Shown: one piece after another, positions 5,074 to 20,162 of the stretch
Numbering within the stretch: the stretch's first letter is position 1
Layout of the letters: each line of letters opens with the position of its first letter
IMG/VR virus record: IMGVR_UViG_3300010296_000082
Location: 1-24,400 of that record
Source of the DNA: a virus
Strand: one strand, 5' to 3'
Length of the DNA: 24,400 nt
Notes under the pieces: generated by a model
What the model was told of the DNA's origin: nothing
Databases searched by the model: none
What the model saw: only the letters and a program-made list of their open reading frames with translations
Translations under genes and position numbers: made by a program

Positions 5074-6150
5074 ATGAAAATAAAACAAGTATCAACACCA
5101 CAAGAAGTAAGACTTTTTGATGGAGATTATATAGAAAATTTAGAGCCTACTGATGTAGTAGAAATATTTCAAACTCCGCTAACAGGTTCGTATAACTGGG
5201 ATTACACAGTTCAAGATAATCGTATCAAAAAGCTTTATGAACTTGGAAAGAAACTCAACTGGAATGTTGAAGAAGATGTAGACTGGACTCCAGAGTTCAA
5301 AGACATACAAGATGACGAGTTTGAATTTGAAAACTCACAATGGGAAAGGCACCCTGTATATAAAACTTGGAATACAGAAAAAAGAAAAGATTTCTTTAGA
5401 GATTTAAACGCTTGGTCACTTAGTCAGTTTTTACATGGAGAACAAGGGGCTTTACTTGTTGCAAGTCAATTAGCTTCTTGTGCGCCTACATTTAATGCAA
5501 AACTCTACGCAGCAAGCCAAACTTTTGATGAAGCTAGACATGTAGAGGCTTTTAATAAATACTTACAAACTCGTATCAAAAAGACCTGGCCTATTGGTAG
5601 AGCTTTGAAAGGGTTACTAGATAAGATATTAACTGACCCTCGTTGGGATTTAAAATTTATTGGAATGCAAGTCGTAATTGAAGGACTAGCACTTGCAGCT
5701 TTTCAAACTTCAAAAGAATCTAGCTCTGATGAAGTCTACAAAAATATGATTGAACTCATTATTAGAGATGAAGCTCGTCATGTAACTTTTGGAATAAACT
5801 ATCTTACAGACTTTGTAAAAACTTTATCAGAAGAAGAACAAATAGATAGAGCTAAGTTTGCTCTTGAAGCCTGTACTGTTAGTAGAAATAGACTAAGACC
5901 TTATGATGTATGGGAAACTTATGGAATGAATATAGAAGAAACTGAAGATTATCAGAAAAAAGAAATTTTTCAAGCTCAGTTTCAAGATATATTATTTAGT
6001 AGAATTATGCCAAATTTAAAAAGAATTGGTTTACTACGAGAAGAATTAGTGCCTGAGTATGAAAAAATGGGTGTCATGGGCTATGCTAATGGTGATAGTG
6101 ATTATGAAACCAGTTGGGAAGAACTCTCAAAACCATTGAGAGTAGCATAA
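5074..6150 (+). CDS. Ferritin-like diiron-carboxylate protein (possible oxygenase)
   Basis: This 358-residue protein carries a complete six-ligand diiron four-helix-bundle pattern: Glu123 (HGEQGA), Glu153 and His156 (FDEARHVEAF), Glu203 (VIEGLA), then Glu233 and His236 (RDEARHVTFG). The two halves are spaced almost identically (E, 30 residues, ExxH), as in the ferritin/R2-like superfamily. Known members are diiron oxygenases and desaturases, AurF-like N-oxygenases, R2-like oxidases and RNR beta subunits. It is not the RNR beta subunit: that is encoded separately at 6400-7356, and the radical-Tyr context is absent here. A strong ribosome site (AAGGAG at 5061-5066) precedes the ATG by 7 bases. 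It is the last rightward gene before the convergent terminator, a typical place for a cargo or auxiliary metabolic gene. The substrate is unknown. Confidence 0.8.
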   Translation: MKIKQVSTPQEVRLFDGDYIENLEPTDVVEIFQTPLTGSYNWDYTVQDNRIKKLYELGKKLNWNVEEDVDWTPEFKDIQDDEFEFENSQWERHPVYKTWNTEKRKDFFRDLNAWSLSQFLHGEQGALLVASQLASCAPTFNAKLYAASQTFDEARHVEAFNKYLQTRIKKTWPIGRALKGLLDKILTDPRWDLKFIGMQVVIEGLALAAFQTSKESSSDEVYKNMIELIIRDEARHVTFGINYLTDFVKTLSEEEQIDRAKFALEACTVSRNRLRPYDVWETYGMNIEETEDYQKKEIFQAQFQDILFSRIMPNLKRIGLLREELVPEYEKMGVMGYANGDSDYETSWEELSKPLRVA

Positions 6151-6180: not shown

Positions 6181-6403
6181 CCTCAGATTCAGTTTCTGGT
6201 GGGTCAAGTTCTTCTTTTAACCGCTTAGTAAGTCCTTCTTTAGACATATTAAGTTGGTCTGTTTTCATTTGATGACCATTTAATTGTTTCTGAACATCAT
6301 CAATACAACTTAGTAAATATTTTGCTGTATCTGATAAATCATCAATTATATATTTTTTCCCATCTAAAACCAAAACTGGCTCGTTATCTACTTGCGTTGT
6401 CAT
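6161..6403 (-). CDS. Small acidic phage protein (80 aa), unknown; possibly DUF6447-like
   Basis: The 80-residue product starts MTTQVDNEPVLVLDGKKY and has a short beta-like start (VLVLDGKKYIIDDL). A helical middle follows (SDTAKYLLSCIDDVQKQL, then a Lys/Leu-rich helix that could form a coiled coil), and then a Glu-rich tail (ETESEEKEEGA). The pattern resembles small phage proteins grouped as DUF6447, but I hold that only loosely. Its ATG overlaps the nrdB stop (ATGA), making it the last gene of the leftward replication and nucleotide operon. Its stop codon lies inside the terminator loop. No enzyme function is visible. Confidence 0.6.
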   Translation of the reverse strand: MTTQVDNEPVLVLDGKKYIIDDLSDTAKYLLSCIDDVQKQLNGHQMKTDQLNMSKEGLTKRLKEELDPPETESEEKEEGA

Positions 6404-7356
6404 TTAAAAATGTCCTGCCAATTTCCTTGTGTACTACTTTTAGCATACTCTGTAGCACGGTTTTCAAAAAAGTTGGTATGCTCAACTGCATTAACTTGCA
6501 TATCAATCCAAGGTAGTGGGTTTTCATTACTATGAAATATATTTTTCATTCCTAAACCAAGAAGCCTTCTATCCGCAATATAACGAATATACTCTTTTAC
6601 TTCTTTGGGTGTTAAGTCTGGAATGTCTGCTTTTGCAAAACAAACATCAATAAACTTATCTTCTAGTTCTACTACTCTTTCAGCAGCACAATAGATTTCA
6701 TACTTTAATTTATCTGTCCATATTTCTGGATTTTCTGCGATAAAAGTTCTAAAGAGTTTTGAAAGTCCTTCTACATGAAGCGACTCATCTCTAATAGACC
6801 ATGTAACTATTTGTCCCATACCTTTCATCAAGTTATGTCTTGGATAATTTAATAGTATTGCAAAACTACTAAATAATTGTACTCCTTCTGTAAATCCACT
6901 ATAGACTGCCATTGTCTTTGCAATCTCATGTGGATTTTTCATACTAAAGTCGGTTAGATACTCATGTTTTTCTGACATTGCTTGAATATCAAAAAACTCT
7001 TGGTACATATCATCTGATTTACCCAAAGTCTCCAAAAGTAAAGAATATGCTTCTTGATGTACAGCTTCCATAGAAGCATAACTTACTAGCATCATTCTTA
7101 TCTCTGGTTGTTTAAATGTTGGTAGATAGTGCTTAGCATATCCACAACATACATCAACATCTGCTTGAGTGAAAAACTTAAATATGTTGTCAAGGAGTAA
7201 TCTGTTGTCAGGAGATAACTTCTCCTTATAATCTTTTATGTCGTCTTGTAATGGCACTTCATCAGGTAGCCAATGCATCTGTTGTTGTCTTTTATAAAAC
7301 TCAAATGCCCAAGGGTACATAAAAGGTTTGTAATATTCTCTTTCTTCTAATAACAT
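6400..7356 (-). CDS. nrdB: Class I ribonucleotide reductase, beta subunit
   Basis: NrdB houses the diiron cofactor and radical that NrdA uses to convert ribonucleotides to deoxyribonucleotides for phage DNA synthesis. The 318-residue sequence has all metal ligands by alignment to E. coli R2: Asp66, Glu97, His100, Glu157, Glu191 and His194. Tyr104 sits seven residues after Glu97, the position of the E. coli Tyr122 radical. This makes it an ordinary tyrosyl-radical enzyme rather than a Tyr-less class Ic type. The C-terminal tail that docks on NrdA is present (ending GNWQDIFK). It lies 2 bases after the nrdA stop, in the usual A-then-B order, and overlaps the next gene by ATGA. No thioredoxin or glutaredoxin gene is visible in the window, so host reductants are presumably used. 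Confidence 0.96.
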   Translation of the reverse strand: MLLEEREYYKPFMYPWAFEFYKRQQQMHWLPDEVPLQDDIKDYKEKLSPDNRLLLDNIFKFFTQADVDVCCGYAKHYLPTFKQPEIRMMLVSYASMEAVHQEAYSLLLETLGKSDDMYQEFFDIQAMSEKHEYLTDFSMKNPHEIAKTMAVYSGFTEGVQLFSSFAILLNYPRHNLMKGMGQIVTWSIRDESLHVEGLSKLFRTFIAENPEIWTDKLKYEIYCAAERVVELEDKFIDVCFAKADIPDLTPKEVKEYIRYIADRRLLGLGMKNIFHSNENPLPWIDMQVNAVEHTNFFENRATEYAKSSTQGNWQDIFK

Positions 7357-7358
7357 TA

Positions 7359-9125
7359 CTATCCCTCACAGCTTAGACAATCTTCTTGTTCAAAGATTAT
7401 CTCTCTTTTTATTTGATTAGAAACATTATCTGCTCTCGAAATGGCTTCACTTCGTAAGTAGTATAATGTTTTCATGTTTTTTGCCCATGCTAACATATGG
7501 ATATTATGTAAATCTCCTTTATTAACATCAGGCGGAAAAAATAAGTTTACACTTTGTGATTGACAAATATATTGTTGTCTCACAGCTGCATGCTCAACAA
7601 CCCAAGACTGATTTATTTCTACAGCAGTCTTAAATACTTCTTTTAAATCTTCCGATAAAAAGTCAAGGTGTTGTACACTTCCTTTATTTGCAACTATACT
7701 TCTCCAAGTCGCATCGTCATTCTTTCCTAGTTTTTCTAGTTCTTCTTCTAAGAATTTATTTTTGTGTAAATGCGACCCAGACTTAGTTTTCTGTGTGTAT
7801 GCATTTGCACGAAAAGGTTCGATACTTGGACTCGTATTTCCACAAAGAATAGAACTACTTGCATTAGGGGCTATAGCTAACAGATGTGCATTTCGTACTG
7901 TACAAGTATCATCATCTGGGCAGGCTCCTCTTTCTACTGCAAGTTTTAAAGTTTCTTCTTGAGCTTGAGATTTTATGTGAGAAAATATCTCTGTATTAAG
8001 ACCAGAAGCAAAGAGCCCTTCAAAAGGTACTTTGTTTTTCTGTAAATACGCATGAAATCCCATTGCGCCTAATCCGATACTTCTCTCCCTAAACGCACTA
8101 TATTTAGCTCGTTCTAAAGAATCGGGCGCATTTTCTATAAAGTATGTTAGAACATTATCTAACATTCTTACTAAATCTGGAATAAACGCTGGAACTTTTT
8201 TCCACTCGTCATAATACTCCAAATTTACACTTGAAAGACAACATACTGCTGTTCTTTCCTCATTTGTAGCAAGTGTGATTTCAGAACATAAGTTAGAGTG
8301 ATTTACCCTCAATCCTTTTCGTTTCTGAAAGTTAGGTAAGTCTGCTTGAACGGCATCTTCAAACATGAGATAAGGCTCTCCTGTTTCCATTCTGTTCTGC
8401 AATAATTTTACCCATAGTGTTCTTGCCGACACTACTTTTTTGACTTCGCCTGAGTGTGGGTCAATAAGTTCCCAGCTGTCATCAAAGCCTTCTGTTTTTG
8501 TAGCCATGTGTATGATTTCCATGAACTTGTCTGGAATTACTACTCCATGATGTAAGTTTAGACACTTACGATTGGTGTCTCCACCAGTAGGTTTTCTTAT
8601 ATCAAGAAATTCCTCAATCTCGGGGTGACTCATATGTAAGTATGAAGCATAACTGCCTCGTCTTGTAATACCTTGTGAGAAAGCAAGCATTTCTGCATCA
8701 ACTACTTTCATAAATGGTATCACACCTGTACTTTCTGAGCCTTTTGATGTTCTCGTACCTTGTGCACGAACTTCACTCCAGCTTCCGCCTATACCTCCAC
8801 CAAAAGATGAAAGATAAGCATTTTCTGTGTAATGTTCAGTAATACCTTCTCTACTATCATCAACATAGTTCAAGAAGCACGAAATCGGTAGACCCCGCTC
8901 AGTCCCTCCATTAGATAGTAGTGGAGTTGCGAACATAAACCAATGCTTACTTACATAATCATATAGTCTTTGTGCATGGTCATCATCATCAGAGAATACC
9001 TTTGCTGCTCGAGCAAAAGCCTGCTGAGGACTTGTTTCATCTGCCACCATATATCTATCTTCTAGGGTCATCATACCAAACTCGTCAAAGAGTTTGTCTC
9101 TACTGTAATCAATCTTTATCGTCAT
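7359..9125 (-). CDS. nrdA: Class I ribonucleotide reductase, alpha subunit (no ATP cone)
   Basis: This is the catalytic RNR subunit, 588 residues, clearly shorter than the roughly 760 of E. coli NrdA. It begins directly in the helical domain, with no N-terminal ATP-cone, so dATP overall-activity inhibition is probably lost, as in other phage enzymes. Catalytic residues are present: Cys83 (LPISCFLN), Asn278-Cys280-Glu282 (NLCSE), Cys295 (CCLSSVNL), the Tyr555-Tyr556 radical-transfer pair (MKTLYYLRSEA), and a C-terminal CLSC pair (583, 586) for re-reduction. Finger-loop and barrel signatures such as GGIGGSWSEVRAQGT and IAPNASSSILCGNTSPSIEP are intact. The ATG has a good GAGGG ribosome site 6 bases upstream and overlaps the end of the flap exonuclease gene by 17 bases. 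Confidence 0.96.
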   Translation of the reverse strand: MTIKIDYSRDKLFDEFGMMTLEDRYMVADETSPQQAFARAAKVFSDDDDHAQRLYDYVSKHWFMFATPLLSNGGTERGLPISCFLNYVDDSREGITEHYTENAYLSSFGGGIGGSWSEVRAQGTRTSKGSESTGVIPFMKVVDAEMLAFSQGITRRGSYASYLHMSHPEIEEFLDIRKPTGGDTNRKCLNLHHGVVIPDKFMEIIHMATKTEGFDDSWELIDPHSGEVKKVVSARTLWVKLLQNRMETGEPYLMFEDAVQADLPNFQKRKGLRVNHSNLCSEITLATNEERTAVCCLSSVNLEYYDEWKKVPAFIPDLVRMLDNVLTYFIENAPDSLERAKYSAFRERSIGLGAMGFHAYLQKNKVPFEGLFASGLNTEIFSHIKSQAQEETLKLAVERGACPDDDTCTVRNAHLLAIAPNASSSILCGNTSPSIEPFRANAYTQKTKSGSHLHKNKFLEEELEKLGKNDDATWRSIVANKGSVQHLDFLSEDLKEVFKTAVEINQSWVVEHAAVRQQYICQSQSVNLFFPPDVNKGDLHNIHMLAWAKNMKTLYYLRSEAISRADNVSNQIKREIIFEQEDCLSCEG

Positions 9126-12185: not shown

Positions 12186-13110
12186 TAAACACTCCTAATA
12201 TTTTTTTGGTTTTACTATCGTCTAATTCTAAAATATAACTCAGATACTCATTTAATTCTTCTTCTATTGTCATTTCTCTATCTAACATCAGAGTAGCTTC
12301 TGTTTTTCTTTTTAATACTTTCTTATCGAGTAATTCTGAGTTTTCTACTCCTGTTAGGTCTGCCACATCTCCTTCTATTTCATAGATTGTATGATGAAAG
12401 TCTGTTTGTACCATTTCATCAGGACTTGATACTGTTTTTCTTAATAGCTGTGGCAAATCAAATGCATGCCAAGTCCAACTCCAATCTGTATCTATTACTA
12501 TATATCCTGTTTGTACTTCGTTCCTATGAAAACTTGTAGTCATAGGACTGCCAGGATATACTATATTTCTTTGCGTATTGCTGTGTGCGTGTAAGTCTCC
12601 TGCAAATACAGTTTTAAACTTACTAAATCTTTCTAAGTCTACTTCAGGTACAACATGGGGTGGTATTTCTCCTCTCACATGAGTAAATAAGTAATCTGTT
12701 CTAACATTTTCTATGCTTCCTTTTTTATGTAAGTCAGCATATGGTAATATTGAATAACCATCTGGGTGCTCATAAAATTCATCAATTATAATTACTTCTG
12801 GATTTATTTCAGTCGTAACTCTTTTCAGATTGGTAAAGAATGTAGTATTCTTTTTAGTAGCCTCATGGTTACCATCAAAAATTATAGTAGGAATACTACA
12901 TTGCTTTACAAAGTCAAAGTATAGAGTCAGCTCGTCCATCGAGGGAACTCGGTCAAACAAGTCCCCTCCAATGATATGTAATTTACAATCGTGCTGTTCT
13001 ATAGCTTCTTCTACCTGCTGAAAGAATAACTTGTATCGAGTACAAGCCCACGGTACTGGGACATTCTTTTGTCCAAGTTTTATATGCCAATCAGCGGTAA
13101 ATAAAATCAT
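12154..13110 (-). CDS. SbcD/Mre11-like nuclease (T4 gp47-like)
   Basis: This is a metallophosphoesterase partner of the downstream gp46-like ATPase, acting on DNA ends. I chose the ATG at 13110: the protein then starts MILFTADWHI, placing motif I (Asp7, His9) at the N-terminus as in the family. The ATG overlaps the peroxiredoxin stop as ATGA. The open frame extends 11 codons further upstream but adds nothing conserved. Other motifs are GDLFDR (Asp50, Asp53), GNHE (81-83), THVRGE, and GDLHAH followed by YPGSPM. Product length is 318. The C-terminal part contains the region that contacts the ATPase coiled coil. The gp47-gp46 order and the overlap are standard. Confidence 0.95.
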   Translation of the reverse strand: MILFTADWHIKLGQKNVPVPWACTRYKLFFQQVEEAIEQHDCKLHIIGGDLFDRVPSMDELTLYFDFVKQCSIPTIIFDGNHEATKKNTTFFTNLKRVTTEINPEVIIIDEFYEHPDGYSILPYADLHKKGSIENVRTDYLFTHVRGEIPPHVVPEVDLERFSKFKTVFAGDLHAHSNTQRNIVYPGSPMTTSFHRNEVQTGYIVIDTDWSWTWHAFDLPQLLRKTVSSPDEMVQTDFHHTIYEIEGDVADLTGVENSELLDKKVLKRKTEATLMLDREMTIEEELNEYLSYILELDDSKTKKILGVFSDYAKEVEVE

Positions 13111-13628
13111 GCTACGAACTCGTCTCCTGCAGTCCACGAACAACCAGTTAATCCACCTGCTCGTAGTGCGTGTAAAGTTCTAATGATTTCATCGATATCT
13201 CTTCCTGTGTCAAGTGCATTAGCTGAAACATGTTGAATAATACCTTCTGGGTCTACTATGTAAGTAGCTCTATAAGGTACATTTTCTTCACTTACTATTT
13301 CTAAATGTTCTGCTAACACATTTCCTGAGTCTGCAAGTAATGGAAAAGAAACATCTTCTAGTAATGGATTATTTTCTAACCATTCAAGATGACAATATTC
13401 ATTATCTGGACTAATACCATATACACTACAGTCCTCTTGTTCTGCAACTTTTTCAAATGCTACGATTTCTGTAGGACAGATAAATGTAAAGTCTTTTGGA
13501 TAAAAGAAAATTACTTTCCAATCTCCTTGAACATCATCAGTATAAACTTGTTTTATAACTTTATCAGGATTAATGCCTACTACACCGTTAAGGGTGGTAT
13601 GAGGAAATTCTTCTCCAACTCCTATCAT
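13107..13628 (-). CDS. 2-Cys peroxiredoxin (AhpC/Prx family)
   Basis: This 173-residue thiol peroxidase should reduce hydrogen peroxide or organic peroxides. The active-site block FFYPKDFTFICPTEI holds Thr48 and the peroxidatic Cys51. Arg120 (YRATYIVD) is the conserved active-site Arg. Cys163 in GCSWTAGDEF sits where the resolving Cys of typical 2-Cys Prx lies (CPxxW), so a disulphide-cycling enzyme is likely. It needs a thioredoxin or AhpF-type reductant, and none is seen in the window. It sits between the ssDNA-binding protein (TAATG overlap) and the gp47-like nuclease (ATGA overlap), so it is produced with the DNA replication genes. Peroxiredoxin is unusual cargo for a phage; protecting DNA synthesis or thiol enzymes such as RNR during infection is a plausible, unproven role. 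Confidence 0.93.
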   Translation of the reverse strand: MIGVGEEFPHTTLNGVVGINPDKVIKQVYTDDVQGDWKVIFFYPKDFTFICPTEIVAFEKVAEQEDCSVYGISPDNEYCHLEWLENNPLLEDVSFPLLADSGNVLAEHLEIVSEENVPYRATYIVDPEGIIQHVSANALDTGRDIDEIIRTLHALRAGGLTGCSWTAGDEFVA

Positions 13629-14696: not shown

Positions 14697-15977
14697 TTAT
14701 AAAGCTTTGACATCATAACCTTGTTTTATATAGTAACCCATTCGTGCACCAGCCTGCCGTCTTGCTGTACGACCGACTAAGTGAATATCAACGATGATTG
14801 GTTGCTGTTTTCCTTCATATATTCGGATTATACGACCTATCAACTGTGTTAATAAAGGTTCATTGTTTACGGGTGTTGCCAAAATAAGACAACTTAGACA
14901 GTCTAAACTAATTCCTTCACTAAATATAGACTGTGTTCCAAACAATATATCTTTTTCTCCGAATATTTGTTTTAGCATAGGAGGGCGCTCTTCGTGAGGA
15001 ATCTTTCCTGTTACGCAGATTGCGTTATCTCCTACAAGTTTCGTACAATTTTGTAAAAAATCGACTCGGTCGCTTACAACCAGTACCTTGTGTCCTCTTG
15101 CCGCATAGTTTGCTGCAAGAAGCGCAACTTGATTTTGGTACTCAAAGTTGTACGCAATAGCGTTGATTCGATTTGCCCATGGGGTATGCGCCCCATCAGG
15201 AAACCTTATACCTGACGGTACGACGTCAACTCGTGGCACAAGATAGTTTTCCTTTGGTGGTTTAAACACCGTGTTAGAGAAATAGTCTCGAAATATAACA
15301 TGTTTGCCATCTTTTCGTTCCATCGTTCCTGTCAATCCAATCTTATATCGTGCGTGACTCGCATCGATAATTCGTGTAAATGTCGGTGATGAAACGTGAT
15401 GCATTTCGTCAAGAATGATAGTCCCGAAACTCTTTTGAATATCGGGTATTCTTCTGTACAAAGTTTGTATATTCCCTACCACGAATGGAGCATCTATTTC
15501 AAATCTTCCACTACCTAGCACACCCGCTGTAACCCCGAGTGATTTTTGTACTTCTTTTTCCCATTGACTACGAAGTTGTAGAGTGTGTGTTACTATGAGT
15601 GTTTTCTGTTTAAGCTTATTTGCAATAGCTAAAGCCGTTACAGTCTTTCCCCAACTGACCCAAGCATTAATTATACTACTGTCATAGAGGTCGTCATAGA
15701 CCGCTTGTTGGGAAGGTCGTAACTCATACGCAAAGTCGAAGTGTGGAATCTCAATGCAAGTTCTCTTATCAACTATTTCGTAATCTGATGGTATTAAATC
15801 CGTCCTTCCGATAGGTAATGAGACTAACCCTTTACGAATTACTCCCATATTCTTTATAACGAAAGGCGGGTCTTGTGGATTTCTTGGAGGTATAGTATAA
15901 GTAAGTTCTTCGTCAATCTTTGATTGCAAAGCTGAGTCTACATTCATGTAAATTCTGTTACTCAGTACTGCCTTCAT
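14697..15977 (-). CDS. SF2 DNA helicase (UvsW/RecG-like annealing helicase type)
   Basis: The 426-residue protein has both RecA-like lobes of SF2. The Walker A is AWVSWGKT (105-112); it keeps the G-K-T core but has Trp where the loop usually reads PTGxGKT. Motif II is DEMH (190-193), motif III GLTGT (214-218), and motif VI QLIGRIIRIYEG (378-389). The accessory N-terminal domain (about 80 residues) before RPSQQ fits T4 UvsW-like phage helicases, which remodel R-loops and replication forks and switch replication mode. Cys360 and Cys363 (DCLSC) lie close together. It overlaps the 2OG-oxygenase gene by 20 bases at its start and is followed by the promoter gap. The UvsW role is inferred from domain type and from company with gp46/gp47. 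Confidence 0.9.
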   Translation of the reverse strand: MKAVLSNRIYMNVDSALQSKIDEELTYTIPPRNPQDPPFVIKNMGVIRKGLVSLPIGRTDLIPSDYEIVDKRTCIEIPHFDFAYELRPSQQAVYDDLYDSSIINAWVSWGKTVTALAIANKLKQKTLIVTHTLQLRSQWEKEVQKSLGVTAGVLGSGRFEIDAPFVVGNIQTLYRRIPDIQKSFGTIILDEMHHVSSPTFTRIIDASHARYKIGLTGTMERKDGKHVIFRDYFSNTVFKPPKENYLVPRVDVVPSGIRFPDGAHTPWANRINAIAYNFEYQNQVALLAANYAARGHKVLVVSDRVDFLQNCTKLVGDNAICVTGKIPHEERPPMLKQIFGEKDILFGTQSIFSEGISLDCLSCLILATPVNNEPLLTQLIGRIIRIYEGKQQPIIVDIHLVGRTARRQAGARMGYYIKQGYDVKAL

Positions 15978-16431
15978 AATCTACTGTCCAATTTTTTATT
16001 TCGTATTTCCAAGGATTTATATTAATACTAGTCCTTTTCCCACGAAAAGGCTCTACACCATGATATAAACCAGGTGAAAAAATTACTAATCTATTAAATT
16101 TAGGTTGGATTGTAACTCCATCTTCAAAAAGTAATTTTCCTCCTTTAATATCATTACTCACATTAGCATAAAATACTGTGGAGCAAAGAGGAAAGTTTAA
16201 TTTTCCCTCTGCAAATAAAGGCTCATCTTTATCATAGTGCATGCCGCCTGGTATTGTATTTTCATGTGTCCATGCTTCATAGTATTTCATTTCTGATAAA
16301 TCAAAATAATTATTAGCCTTATCCAGTATAGTTTTCACTAATTCTGGCGCTTCTTTCATACTTCTAAACTCCTGTATAAAAGCAGGTATCATTAAAGTAT
16401 CATCTAAAAAATTATCTACTATTACTATCAT
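15958..16431 (-). CDS. 2-oxoglutarate/Fe(II)-dependent dioxygenase
   Basis: This 157-residue double-stranded beta-helix enzyme has the iron triad His65-x-Asp67 (GGMHYDKDE) and His124 (FSPGLYHGVEP). Arg133 (GKRTSININPW) is positioned to bind the 2-oxoglutarate carboxylate. The N-terminus MIVIVDNFLDD is typical of small prolyl-hydroxylase-like phage oxygenases. Such enzymes hydroxylate proteins, nucleic-acid bases or small molecules with O2; the substrate here is unknown. Its stop overlaps the UvsW-like start by 20 bases, and upstream lies the 25-codon membrane peptide gene. I see no clear Shine-Dalgarno before its ATG, so translation may depend on coupling with the upstream small gene. Confidence 0.88.
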   Translation of the reverse strand: MIVIVDNFLDDTLMIPAFIQEFRSMKEAPELVKTILDKANNYFDLSEMKYYEAWTHENTIPGGMHYDKDEPLFAEGKLNFPLCSTVFYANVSNDIKGGKLLFEDGVTIQPKFNRLVIFSPGLYHGVEPFRGKRTSININPWKYEIKNWTVDYEGSTE

Positions 16432-16432
16432 A

Positions 16433-16510
16433 TTATATGAAAAATATTATGTAAGTTGCGAATATATAACTTATCGTTACTAGCCCCCATTTTACTATAT
16501 TTTTCTCCAT
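16433..16510 (-). CDS. Single-membrane-span micropeptide (25 aa)
   Basis: A 25-codon frame starts at the ATG at 16510, with a good ribosome site (AAGGA, 7 bases upstream), and stops at 16433. The product begins MEKNIVKW and continues as an uninterrupted hydrophobic stretch (GLVTISYIFATYIIFFI), so it is almost entirely one transmembrane helix. The gene overlaps the end of the 161-residue gene by 16 bases and fills the only gap before the oxygenase gene. It could be a subunit stabiliser of the kind seen with respiratory complexes, a pinholin-like peptide, or incidental. The strong ribosome site and the clean hydrophobic profile favour a real product. Confidence 0.55.
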   Translation of the reverse strand: MEKNIVKWGLVTISYIFATYIIFFI

Positions 16511-16980
16511 GTCTTTTTCCTTAGTTCGTTACTAAACTCATAGATAAATGCAGGTTGATTTTGTAGGTATAAGACTCCCGCATACTTTGCAGTCACTGGT
16601 CTTACTTCTTCAAAGGGCGAAGGTATATCCTTTACCCAAACAAGAGTACATACATCTTTCTTCTGTATTTTTTCTATTCGTTTATAAATTATGTTTGCCT
16701 TTGTTGTTTTGTTGTAGACAAAATACTTGCCTTTGGTATCAACATAAAATTTACCTCTGTGCTTGACGAGACTGCGAAAATCCCTAAGCATATACTTAAG
16801 AGGATATAAACTCTTAAACGGTGACTGTATTCTTCTAATTCCAATCGTTTCTCCTTTCATGTTATAGTCATCTACTACACCCATAGTTCCATCTGCTTGA
16901 GTGCACCAAAGTATGTTGTCTTGTTTTTCAGCTTCTCCAGATAAGACAAAAACTGGAAAAGTTATATCTTTTAAATTCAT
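16495..16980 (-). CDS. Soluble protein of the cytochrome cassette, unknown function
   Basis: This is a 161-residue basic, beta-rich protein with no signal peptide or membrane helix. Visible segments are ITFPVFVLSGE, LWCTQADGTMGVVDDYNMKG, KHRGKFYVDTKGKYFVYNK, and YAGVLYLQNQPAFIYEFSNELRKKTW. The mix of short strands and basic patches recalls small phage nucleic-acid-associated proteins, but I recognise no family. Its ATG overlaps the stop of the 87-residue membrane protein (ATGA). It is therefore coupled to the cytochrome cassette, though it may belong functionally to the replication genes. Confidence 0.65.
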   Translation of the reverse strand: MNLKDITFPVFVLSGEAEKQDNILWCTQADGTMGVVDDYNMKGETIGIRRIQSPFKSLYPLKYMLRDFRSLVKHRGKFYVDTKGKYFVYNKTTKANIIYKRIEKIQKKDVCTLVWVKDIPSPFEEVRPVTAKYAGVLYLQNQPAFIYEFSNELRKKTWRKI

Positions 16981-17240
16981 TCAAATATTGCCATTACTGT
17001 AAGAGGAATTGAACCCATAAAGATTGTAGTAAGAGCTGGAACTATCCACATCATCATGGGATATTTTGTAATCCAGTCATAATCTTTATTATTCATTCCT
17101 TTCTTCTTTTCTTGCTCAGTATACTCAGGATATCTTATACTTAATAGATACCTTCTCACATGAGCAGGCGTATTTGGGTCATTTATTCTCTCAATCTGAC
17201 TTCTTGTCATTTGTTCTAGGGGGAGATTGTCTTGTTTCAT
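16977..17240 (-). CDS. Small C-terminally anchored membrane protein next to cytochrome c
   Basis: The 87-residue product has a soluble charged N-terminal part of about 58 residues (MKQDNLPLEQMTRSQIERI, then a segment with PAHVRRYLLS). One hydrophobic span at the C-terminus follows (WIVPALTTIFMGSIPLTVMAIF), so it would be tail-anchored with its bulk probably in the cytoplasm. It overlaps the cytochrome c stop by ATGA and the next gene by ATGA. This four-gene coupling suggests a shared membrane function with the cytochrome, such as a docking or assembly partner. I do not recognise the family; a lysis-related small membrane protein is an alternative. Confidence 0.7.
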   Translation of the reverse strand: MKQDNLPLEQMTRSQIERINDPNTPAHVRRYLLSIRYPEYTEQEKKKGMNNKDYDWITKYPMMMWIVPALTTIFMGSIPLTVMAIFE

Positions 17241-17671
17241 TGCAAAGTATCAATGTATGCTTGTAGATTCTCCATATCTTCTGTTGATAAATTTGCTGAT
17301 TGTCCCCACATAAGTGCAGACTGAGCTCCTCTAGTTTCCCCATTTTTATACTGGGTTAGCATTTTCACTATGGAAGTGCTTCCTACCAGTTTTGGACCTA
17401 TGCCACCTTCTCCTTTCATTCCATGACACATATTACAATTAATATATATCTTACCGCCTTTATCGGCAGGAGTTTCAGACTGCATAGCAACCTTTTTTGC
17501 TTCTAGCTGTTCGCTGAATGTTCCATACTTTGCAGTATATTCTTCATAACATTCGCCCCAGCAACCATGATTATCTGTATAGCCTTTCACTTCTGCATTA
17601 GTAACGGTAGCGTATAAAATACCTCCTAATCCTAATACTCCGACAGCTGTGGCTATCAATGCTTCTTTCAT
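17237..17671 (-). CDS. Monohaem c-type cytochrome, exported or membrane-anchored
   Basis: This 144-residue protein has an N-terminal hydrophobic segment (about 4-22, ALIATAVGVLGLGGILYAT) ending in TNA. That could be a signal peptide cleaved near residue 26 or an uncleaved anchor. The haem-attachment site is CNMCH (Cys79, Cys82, His83), followed by GMKGEGGIGPKLVGS. The distal ligand is most likely Met121 (SALMWGQSANLS), and LSTEDMENLQAYIDTL matches the C-terminal helix of class I cytochromes c. An extra CWGEC pair (Cys37, Cys41) lies before the haem domain, perhaps a disulphide or metal site. A strong ribosome site (AAGGAG) precedes the ATG. It needs the host haem-ligation machinery in the periplasm. 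The likely role is carrying electrons in the host envelope; the partner is unknown. Confidence 0.92.
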   Translation of the reverse strand: MKEALIATAVGVLGLGGILYATVTNAEVKGYTDNHGCWGECYEEYTAKYGTFSEQLEAKKVAMQSETPADKGGKIYINCNMCHGMKGEGGIGPKLVGSTSIVKMLTQYKNGETRGAQSALMWGQSANLSTEDMENLQAYIDTLQ

Positions 17672-17877
17672 GTGTTATCTCCTTCTATGTATTTGACTGT
17701 ACCTTGTATGTCAAATACTCTGCTTTGTTTGTTTTTATCTTTCATCAATTCTGATAATTTGTAAGTCTTTATTCTTTTATCTTGAAGTGAAAGTATGGAA
17801 CATGCTATTGCTACAAAACTAACAATACATGTCATTAACAGATAACCAAGATATCCTTCAATACCTAAATATTCCAT
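17668..17877 (-). CDS. Small N-terminally anchored membrane protein before cytochrome c
   Basis: This 69-residue protein has one hydrophobic span near the N-terminus (about 9-30, YLGYLLMTCIVSFVAIACSIL). A basic helical linker follows (LQDKRIKTYKLSELMKDKNK), then a short C-terminal tail (VFDIQGTVKYIEG). The ATG overlaps the DNA polymerase stop (TAATG), and its stop overlaps the cytochrome ATG (ATGA). It is therefore made between the two in a fixed ratio. The single-span layout resembles small accessory subunits of respiratory complexes in shape only; I see no family match. The weak promoter-like TTGACA inside it is discussed under rejected items. Confidence 0.7.
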   Translation of the reverse strand: MEYLGIEGYLGYLLMTCIVSFVAIACSILSLQDKRIKTYKLSELMKDKNKQSRVFDIQGTVKYIEGDNT

Positions 17878-20162
17878 TACATCTCTCCATACTTACTTTC
17901 AAATTTACCAAATGAATAGTCATCTCCAATATCAAAATCACAACCAATAGGTGTGCCTGGAATTGATAAACCTCTATCTTTTTGCACATTTCTTCTAACA
18001 ACTTCGCAGTACTCCTCTACTTCTTCTTCATCTACTTCAGCTAAAATAGAGTCGTGTACAAGAGCAAATATTTGAGCTCTCATACCTCGTTCTTTAACTT
18101 CTTTGTGTGAGTCTATGGCTCCAAGTAAATTTACATCAGATGCGATAGATTGTACTAAAAAGTTAATACCACTACGAACTTCATGTGCTGCAATACCTTT
18201 GTCTTCACTAAAAACATTAGGTAATCTTCTTTTTCTTCCGAAATAAGAATATATAAATCCATTGTCTTGAATAAACTGTTTGGATTTATCTAACCAAGAT
18301 TTTAGTCCATGAAACTGTGCAAAGTAATCATCAATGACTTCTTTTGCTTCAGTTGTACTAAAATACTTGCCTGAGTCTTTTGATACTTGTTCACTAATCT
18401 TTTTCGGACCAGCTCCATACATAATACCAAAAGTTACTGCCTTAGCCATTTGTCTTTCAGTAGAGTAGTGTTCAGTTACTTCTTCTACTGTGCCAGGCAA
18501 ATTAAATACTAATTTAGCAATTTGACTATGAAAGTTTCCTCCATCTTGAAAGACTTTCATTAATGCTTTATCATTGGCTAACACAGCCGCACAATATACT
18601 TCTGCTGTAGTTAAATCCATTGCAACAATCTTATTGCCTTCTTTTGCTTTGATACACCCTTTTACTATTGGATTATCTCTAGGAATTTGTTGCATATTCA
18701 TTTTTCCACTAGATGATAACCTACCAGAAGTTGTGCCATGTAAATTAAAATTAGTTCTTAGTCTACTATCTCTATCTAACTGAGGATATATCTTATCTAA
18801 ATATGTAGATTTAATTTTTACTTTCTGTCTTATATCTAATACTAATTTAGGTATTTCATGTACTTCTGCTAGTTTTCCTAATACTTCTGCATCTGTGCTG
18901 TTGGCACCTGTACCAGTCTTTTTACCAGTAGGTGTTAATTGTAAAAAATCAAATAGTAATCCACGAAGTTGTACTGTACTATTTGGGTTGAAGTCTTTTC
19001 CTTGCGCATCTTCAAACATCTTTACAGCTGGATATGTATATAATTTTTCAACTGCTTCATCAATTTCTTTTTGCATAAGTGCTGTAGACTTCATAAGTCT
19101 GTCCTTGTTAAAAGGAACACCATAATCTTGTGCATCAATCAAAAATCTACAGCCTTCAATTAGTATATCCCTATACACGCTGTACATTTTTTCATTCTTT
19201 ACTAATGCTGCCTCAAACTTTTGAAACAACAAGAAAGTACACACCGCATCCATTGCAGCATAGTCTTTCATTATGTCAAACGGAATCATATCCCAAGAGA
19301 AACTATCTTTTAGAATACCTGTTCTCTTTCTATAATCTTCAATCCATTGATACATAGGTTTTTCATAGTCACCATATGGTGTATGTTTCAAAGTTAGTTG
19401 TTTTAGTCCATGTGTGCCAGGCTGTTCATCTAACATATAATGCATAAGCATGGTATCTTCAAATCTTGGAAACTTAAATCCAAAGTGATACTCAAAAAAT
19501 GCAATATCAAACTTAGCATTATGAAATACTACTCGTTTCTTATCAAAAATTAATTGTAATAATTCTTCTGCTTTTTCATCTATACAATTACAGTCTATGT
19601 ATGCGCCATGCTCTGGCTCATAAGACATACTAATACCTAGCATATGCCCATCTCGTGGATATAATGCACTTGTTTCCGAATCCAGAGCAACAAAATCATT
19701 TTCATGTTCTAAGGCTTTAGTTAAGAATACATATAAGTCTGCACTCTCTGTTATGCCATAGATATTTTCTAACTTTTCTTGTTTCATTTCGCCATTGAGA
19801 TACTTAAATACATTATCTCTTGACTCTTCCCAAGTCTTTTTTGCCTCTGGTTTGAAAGCTAACATCGCAGGATTAATTACTGGTAGAAACTTGTCATCTA
19901 CTATTCTACCACTATATTCTGTTATGGAGCCTTCCTTAGTATAAAATTTTAGTGGCTCGGAACCAACTAAAATTACCCAGTCATAATCATCTGGGTTAAA
20001 TTCAATATCAACATCTCGTTTTAATACTCTTTTTACAGAAGGATTAGAACAGAGTTGAAACTGGTCAAATTCAAACGAGTTTTCAAACAAATCCACATAG
20101 TCATTTCTACTTGGTTTTGTTTCTACTATCGCTATTGCTTGACCTTGTAATACTTCAGCCAT
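17877..20162 (-). CDS. Family A DNA polymerase with 3'-5' exonuclease and UDG-like N-terminus
   Basis: This 761-residue replicative polymerase has three parts. Residues 1-125 include VILVGSEPLKFYT...GSITEYSGR...PVINPAML, resembling the second half of family 4/SPO1-type uracil-glycosylase domains. The usual HP motif reads NP here and the first half is eroded, so this domain is probably non-catalytic. The 3'-5' exonuclease has Asp161/Glu163, Asn215/Asp219 and Tyr301/Asp305. The polymerase domain has motif A Asp516 (MDLTTAEVY, with Glu521), the O-helix RQMAKAVTFGIMYG (Arg570, Lys574, Phe578, Tyr582) and motif C VHDS (His703, Asp704). Phe578 corresponds to E. coli Phe762. There is no 5' nuclease domain; that activity is encoded at 9109-9966. 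It overlaps the primase gene by 8 bases. Confidence 0.97.
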   Translation of the reverse strand: MAEVLQGQAIAIVETKPSRNDYVDLFENSFEFDQFQLCSNPSVKRVLKRDVDIEFNPDDYDWVILVGSEPLKFYTKEGSITEYSGRIVDDKFLPVINPAMLAFKPEAKKTWEESRDNVFKYLNGEMKQEKLENIYGITESADLYVFLTKALEHENDFVALDSETSALYPRDGHMLGISMSYEPEHGAYIDCNCIDEKAEELLQLIFDKKRVVFHNAKFDIAFFEYHFGFKFPRFEDTMLMHYMLDEQPGTHGLKQLTLKHTPYGDYEKPMYQWIEDYRKRTGILKDSFSWDMIPFDIMKDYAAMDAVCTFLLFQKFEAALVKNEKMYSVYRDILIEGCRFLIDAQDYGVPFNKDRLMKSTALMQKEIDEAVEKLYTYPAVKMFEDAQGKDFNPNSTVQLRGLLFDFLQLTPTGKKTGTGANSTDAEVLGKLAEVHEIPKLVLDIRQKVKIKSTYLDKIYPQLDRDSRLRTNFNLHGTTSGRLSSSGKMNMQQIPRDNPIVKGCIKAKEGNKIVAMDLTTAEVYCAAVLANDKALMKVFQDGGNFHSQIAKLVFNLPGTVEEVTEHYSTERQMAKAVTFGIMYGAGPKKISEQVSKDSGKYFSTTEAKEVIDDYFAQFHGLKSWLDKSKQFIQDNGFIYSYFGRKRRLPNVFSEDKGIAAHEVRSGINFLVQSIASDVNLLGAIDSHKEVKERGMRAQIFALVHDSILAEVDEEEVEEYCEVVRRNVQKDRGLSIPGTPIGCDFDIGDDYSFGKFESKYGEM

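Follow-up and report, generated by a model that had tools for sequence, protein, structure and literature searches.

The window, by which the whole 24.4-kb virus record is meant, was assigned to a T5-like phage from its replication genes (D5-like regulator, SbcC/SbcD, family A polymerase, primase and helicase). Its polymerase is 45% identical to those of Proteus T5-like phages and its NrdA is closest to pelagiphage proteins (65%). The features considered below were as follows.

6400..7356, minus strand: NrdB
7359..9125, minus strand: NrdA
approximately 16433..16510, minus strand: 25-aa hydrophobic open reading frame (ORF), not conserved among relatives
16495..16980, minus strand: s161, a 161-aa backbone gene (phrog_4386) forming the downstream insertion border, outside the cassette
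16977..17240, minus strand: TM87, an 87-aa single-span membrane protein and downstream partner, with homologues directly 3' of cytochromes
17237..17671, minus strand: class I c-type cytochrome, 144 aa, identified from Pfam, PDB relatives, AlphaFold and Foldseek, and invariance in relatives; parts are an N-terminal membrane helix (residues ~2-25), an HxCxGEC segment (35-41), C79-x-x-C82-H83 and the distal Met121
17668..17877, minus strand: TM69, a 69-aa single-span membrane protein and upstream partner, with a cytosolic-type basic tail by sequence and homologues beside cytochromes
17877..20162, minus strand: polA, the T5-like backbone family A DNA polymerase, forming the upstream insertion border

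A TAATG is shared by polA and TM69, TM69 overlaps both the polA stop and the cytochrome start, and ATGA overlaps join TM69 to the cytochrome, the cytochrome to TM87 and TM87 to s161; AGAAGGAG stands 5' of the cytochrome ATG. Coordinates and overlaps are those given in a preliminary description of this DNA, which had reported coupling of the cytochrome to polA and to small single-span membrane proteins. That description had also counted the 161-residue protein and the 25-residue peptide in the cassette, and neither is retained here. In most T5-like contigs without a cytochrome s161 directly follows polA; s161 is backbone, present without the cytochrome, and the window cassette is therefore TM69-cytochrome-TM87. 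The 25-aa ORF is missing from L001, L002 and L005, and a different short ORF occurs in L003 and L004. Rfam and tRNA scans of the window returned no matches.

Other genes of the window were recorded. An AurF-like/R2-like diiron protein (5074-6150, plus strand) scored just below the PF11583 cutoff (28.5 against 29.6 bits); it had no match in deposited phages, and homologues are present in the cytochrome-bearing contigs L014, L031, L050 and L190. The peroxiredoxin at 13107-13628 (minus strand) belongs to the backbone; most T5-like marine contigs have it, flanked by ssb and SbcD. A 2OG-Fe(II) oxygenase (15958-16431, minus strand) lies between s161 and the helicase and is found in only some T5-like relatives.

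Identity of the cytochrome

On its sequence, 17237-17671 encodes a class I cytochrome c, for which haem attachment and export are predicted. The protein scored above the cutoffs for Cytochrome_CBB3 (PF13442; 27.9 bits, cutoff 27) and Cytochrom_C (PF00034; 28.0 bits, cutoff 21.3). Its PDB relatives are cytochromes c4, c552 and c554 (1etp, 1cno, 2zzs), and Met121 aligns with a Met of c552. C79, C82, H83 and Met121 are invariant across the aligned relatives, as are C37 and C41, and the CXXCH, distal SxxMW and N-terminal CxGxC motifs were present in 111/111 distinct full-length phage proteins among the matches listed. The CXXCH site and distal Met singled out in the preliminary description are thus borne out. 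AlphaFold2 run on 74 sequences gave a model with a pLDDT of 88.7, comprising an N-terminal helix (2-25), a linker with helices and the haem domain; in a Foldseek search the haem domain was matched to cytochrome c554 (2zzs; target TM 0.85, rmsd 1.5 Å, 79 columns). An earlier model from 17 sequences was poor (pLDDT 69.5), with a weak Foldseek result. The family search and structure prediction that had been proposed as checks both returned a cytochrome c. Values of dN/dS were approximately 0.04-0.2 in most pairs, and 0.47 in one very close pair with few changes.

A chance CXXCH was ruled out by the Pfam scores, the predicted fold, the Foldseek match and the presence of the motif in all 111 proteins among the matches listed. 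The cbb3 oxidase subunit CcoP was also ruled out: there is one CXXCH as against a di-haem protein, no oxidase gene nearby, and no ccoP match in NCBIfam at E <= 0.1. No match to the cytochrome was found in PHROG, and a structure search of BFVD returned no viral protein with a cytochrome fold.

The likeness to the class I cytochromes c4, c552 and c554 lies in the sequence and fold of the haem domain, which is the part covered by the matches; in the phage protein, by contrast, a membrane helix and a conserved HxCxGEC linker precede the one haem domain. Membrane-anchored cytochromes of the cy/CycM type carry a tethered single haem domain that shuttles electrons from bc1 to the oxidase. The phage protein resembles them in having a single haem domain on a membrane tether, a comparison of architecture alone.

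Insertion and spread among phages

The T5-like contigs share a stable gene order, D5-DnaB-primase-polA-s161-helicase-145aa-ssb-Prx-SbcD-SbcC-PDDEXK-FEN-NrdA-NrdB. Most of these phages have no cytochrome, and the others carry it at one or another of four insertion sites. The sites were as follows.

Between polA and s161: the window, L001-L005, L051-L052, L130, L177 and L201
Between Prx and SbcD: L081-L083, L119 and L392-L393
Between SbcC and PDDEXK: L341, L350 and L352
Between NrdA and NrdB: the sister phages L077-L080

Neither cytochrome nor alternative oxidase (AOX; see below) lies between polA and SbcD in 27 of the 34 contigs spanning that stretch. On the protein tree, which has a short alignment and many open forks, the T5-like copies fall in separate parts (the window with L051; L079; L081), and this scatter suggests that T5-like phages gained the cytochrome more than once.

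A host chimera or misassembly was ruled out, as the same arrangement is found on independent contigs, both empty and filled sites occur, and the GC content is within the range of the neighbours. The placement in a phage replication operon described earlier is upheld: T5-like backbone flanks the cytochrome on independent contigs, which marks it as a bona fide phage gene and not host contamination. Of the findings that would have counted against the preliminary description, none was obtained, since the fold is that of a cytochrome c, CXXCH is kept in relatives and the contig is no chimera.

The same description had treated the arrangement as without known precedent among phages; it is not unique to this phage, as relatives in other contigs share it. 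In IMG/VR, 136 loci were confirmed by scanning with the window-type alignment and 352 by scanning with a more distant L069-type query, the two sets overlapping. Relatives of the cytochrome occur on more than 300 marine viral contigs, with T5-like, T4-like and pelagiphage-like backbones, these contig counts being phylogenetically non-independent (L130 and L332 are one contig). The relatives analysed were the best 80 of the 136 and the best 80 of the 352 loci, a query-biased sample of contigs that are fragments. Podovirus-like (pelagiphage-like) carriers have a polymerase 51% identical to that of Pelagibacter phage HTVC115P. T4-like carriers have a gp43-type polymerase, UvsX, a T4-type primase, baseplate genes and an NrdA 75% identical to that of cyanomyophages. 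The DNA of the module of cytochrome and small membrane protein is ~75-84% identical among T5-like, pelagiphage-like and T4-like contigs; the flanks just outside it align at 42-51% identity, the level of unrelated sequence.

Neither the window-type nor the L069-type query gave a match at E<=1 in 50,697 deposited phage records. No phage cytochrome c of this kind was found described in the literature searched; this absence is weak evidence, because most subscription papers and preprints fell outside the search. Phage soxD genes are known from viral contigs, two of which encode a protein lacking one haem motif or both (PMC8190135). They are likewise cytochrome c-like auxiliary metabolic genes in viral contigs, but soxD is a sulfane dehydrogenase subunit with an unrelated gene context. 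Viral cbb3 oxidase reads have been recorded in Indian Ocean viromes (PMC3474794), and a viral AlaS is thought to sustain haem for respiration (PMC11480375).

Partner genes and cellular relatives

Homologues of TM69 adjoin the cytochrome in the T5-like contigs L001-L005 and L051-L052 and in contigs L031-L035, L047-L048 and L053. Those of TM87 lie directly after it in T5-like, pelagiphage-like and T4-like contigs. A small TM gene was directly 3' of the cytochrome in 45/101 distinct cases among the matches listed, as against 50/1129 control genes (4.4%), an enrichment whose p value is inflated by related contigs. Several contigs, T5-like and other, have a further hydrophobic protein of ~130 aa encoded ahead of the cytochrome, from a family here called mp130. 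Pfam and NCBIfam held no family for TM69, TM87, mp130 or the ~70-aa TM proteins.

A ~190-aa neighbour in the relatives is AOX (PF01786, E=1e-68, 231.7 bits, cutoff 22.7), and the diiron motifs LET, ERMH, EEEAV and RADExxH were present on reading its sequence. An ATGA overlap joins the AOX and cytochrome genes, whichever of the two comes first. Among the matches listed (111 distinct cytochromes), AOX lay within 50 bp in 9, within 1.5 kb in 19 and within 5 kb in 29. There is no AOX within the window's 24.4 kb; in the near relative L052, with 93% identity to the window in the polymerase, the order is polA-TM69-cyt-AOX-TM87-like-s161, and in L130 it is polA-AOX-cyt-s161. All four T5-like entries with AOX between polA and s161 also have the cytochrome, two of the four being one contig. 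No cyanophage isolate was matched by tblastn of AOX.

The sole deposited phage record with an AOX homologue was Phage C48C1 (OQ984149.1:26279-26830; 58.5% identity), where it is annotated as a hypothetical protein. The tripartite tricarboxylate transporter gene TctA (PF01970, E=6e-92) was found at L054:5382-7918 and also in L007 and L029; in this group of phage contigs AOX, a methyltransferase-like gene and the cytochrome are preceded by TctA and a gene that probably encodes a binding protein. A DoxX-family membrane protein (PF07681, just over cutoff) lies immediately 3' of the cytochrome at L350:7345-7791. Fatty acid desaturase-like genes occur in cytochrome carriers at L031:3767-4708 and L014:16898-17677.

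The nearest cellular relatives of the window cytochrome are in Halieaceae. A first genome scan with a strict alignment gave no matches. In a second scan, full-length cellular homologues, which also have the N-terminal cysteine motif, were found only in Halieaceae-type Gammaproteobacteria. Within the family, 15 of 61 sampled genomes matched at E<=1e-25; among 369 sampled genomes of the class, the sole full-length match was the centre genome of the Halieaceae family itself. None of 385 sampled genomes of the alphaproteobacterial class matched, in a run without a positive control. The Halieaceae proteins (L232-L235, L247, L313-L326) match at full length with 39-42% identity and share the CxGECYE segment; unlike the phage copies, their genes are chromosomal. 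The tree places the phage proteins as a sister clade of the Halieaceae ones, at modest support values (85/79).

Homologues of mp130 adjoin the cytochrome in four Halieaceae loci (L235/L314, L317, L318 and L319). Across the 61 genomes, strong matches to the cytochrome and to mp130 (10 genomes each) co-occurred in 7 (p ~3e-5, kinship ignored). The Halieaceae loci read contained no AOX, TM69, TM87 or sm70, and no recognisable oxidase gene lay beside the cytochrome in these neighbourhoods, which were read by eye from N-termini and not by profile. Three full-length matches in contigs assigned in GTDB to Synechococcus CPC35 and to a Sphingobacteriales MAG (L229-L231) were not accepted as cellular; the NrdA-NrdB-cyt-Grx(-AOX) order of these contigs is that of T4-like phages, so they look like phage contigs that were misbinned.

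Proposed function

The genes are read as a mobile respiratory module, whose cytochrome probably shuttles electrons from host quinol oxidation to a terminal oxidase during infection. A respiratory electron carrier fits because the protein would be a periplasmic, tethered haem protein whose gene is coupled to those of small membrane proteins, with a quinol oxidase gene joining them in relatives. The module would consist of the cytochrome and one or two small membrane partners, with AOX added in many relatives. Assuming that the host has a Ccm system, the cytochrome would be matured by host cytochrome c assembly and would be tethered to the membrane facing the periplasm. It would take electrons from bc1 or an equivalent complex and pass them to the host terminal oxidase, a suitable oxidase being assumed, and AOX would draw electrons straight from ubiquinol. 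The cytochrome would thereby serve the proton-pumping branch and AOX a non-pumping bypass, allowing quinol oxidation and NADH recycling to continue during dNTP synthesis; together, the two branches would hold the quinone pool in an oxidised state and maintain the supply of ATP and reductant. Several unrelated phage groups carry the module as an insertion in operons for early replication and nucleotide synthesis, a placement that would make its expression coincide with dNTP synthesis.

The preliminary description had proposed that the cassette alters host respiratory electron flow, for example by bypassing a lost complex. The wider proposal gains independent support, because relatives carry AOX overlapping the cytochrome and mp130 adjoins the Halieaceae copy; the bypass of a lost complex is unsupported.

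The strongest genomic neighbour of the cytochrome is ribonucleotide reductase (RNR), rather than a respiratory enzyme: NrdA or NrdB lay within 1.5 kb of 73, and glutaredoxin within 1.5 kb of 49, of the 111 distinct cytochromes among the matches listed. This proximity may reflect an operon hotspot, and could hint at another role. An unlikely alternative that it favours, together with the invariance of C37 and C41, is a functional link of the cytochrome to ribonucleotide reduction or to thiol redox, in which it would accept electrons from, or give them to, the RNR/glutaredoxin system, with CxGEC as a redox or metal site. However, c-type haem is attached in the periplasm and RNR and glutaredoxin are cytosolic; because the compartments differ, proximity to RNR is best taken as a matter of timing in the early nucleotide operons. 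The cytochrome also sits away from RNR in the window, L081-L083 and L341-L352, though RNR is encoded in the window, L082, L083 and L352, and the Halieaceae homologues share the cysteines and lie away from RNR in the loci read.

It is equally improbable that the cytochrome detoxifies oxygen species, as a donor to a peroxidase or as a direct scavenger of superoxide or peroxide protecting iron enzymes. Peroxiredoxin adjoins it in L081-L083, L119 and L391-L393, and AOX, as is generally known, also lowers superoxide production; but peroxiredoxin belongs to the lineage backbone whether the cytochrome is there or not, the two partners are exposed to different compartments, and no cytochrome c peroxidase was seen beside the cytochrome. 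That an altered cytochrome and membrane peptides jam the oxidase or bc1, blocking the host or superinfecting phages, is very unlikely: the module is optional and mobile, and inhibitory phage membrane peptides are small, in size like the single-span partners, but the haem and ligand residues are all kept and AOX has intact diiron motifs, which suggests working electron transfer.

For the respiratory module, the closest known parallel is in cyanophages, where petE (plastocyanin) and PTOX have been described as a cassette, hypothesised to be mobile, whose likely effect is to stop electrons from accumulating (PMC3037559). Both systems combine an electron carrier with a quinol oxidase of the AOX/PTOX superfamily, and both are sporadic in phages and variously placed in their genomes. 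In contrast to petE/PTOX, the carrier here is a cytochrome c and the oxidase AOX, with no plastocyanin or PTOX homologues; there are small membrane partners; and the carriers are T5-like, pelagiphage-like and T4-like phages of mostly unassigned hosts, with respiration in place of photosynthesis. The best reading of the module is as a heterotroph counterpart of the plastocyanin/PTOX cassette, analogous in arrangement and without homology. There is about an even chance that, more broadly, phages of heterotrophic marine bacteria run a mobile module that re-plumbs host electron transport at the time of dNTP synthesis, with the CxGEC linker and membrane partners docking to host complexes.

Phage control of photosynthesis is textbook knowledge. 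Control of respiration in heterotrophs by phages has so far rested on scattered annotations. A cytochrome c family that looks competent for haem, is found in many marine phages of several unrelated types, has been inserted next to replication genes more than once and is linked to AOX makes the question directly testable, with the genes named. By analogy, the findings suggest that these marine viruses of bacteria adjust host respiration during infection, as phages of photosynthetic bacteria adjust photosynthesis. If this is true, control of respiration would be a recurrent phage strategy, with a reach comparable to that of viral photosynthesis.
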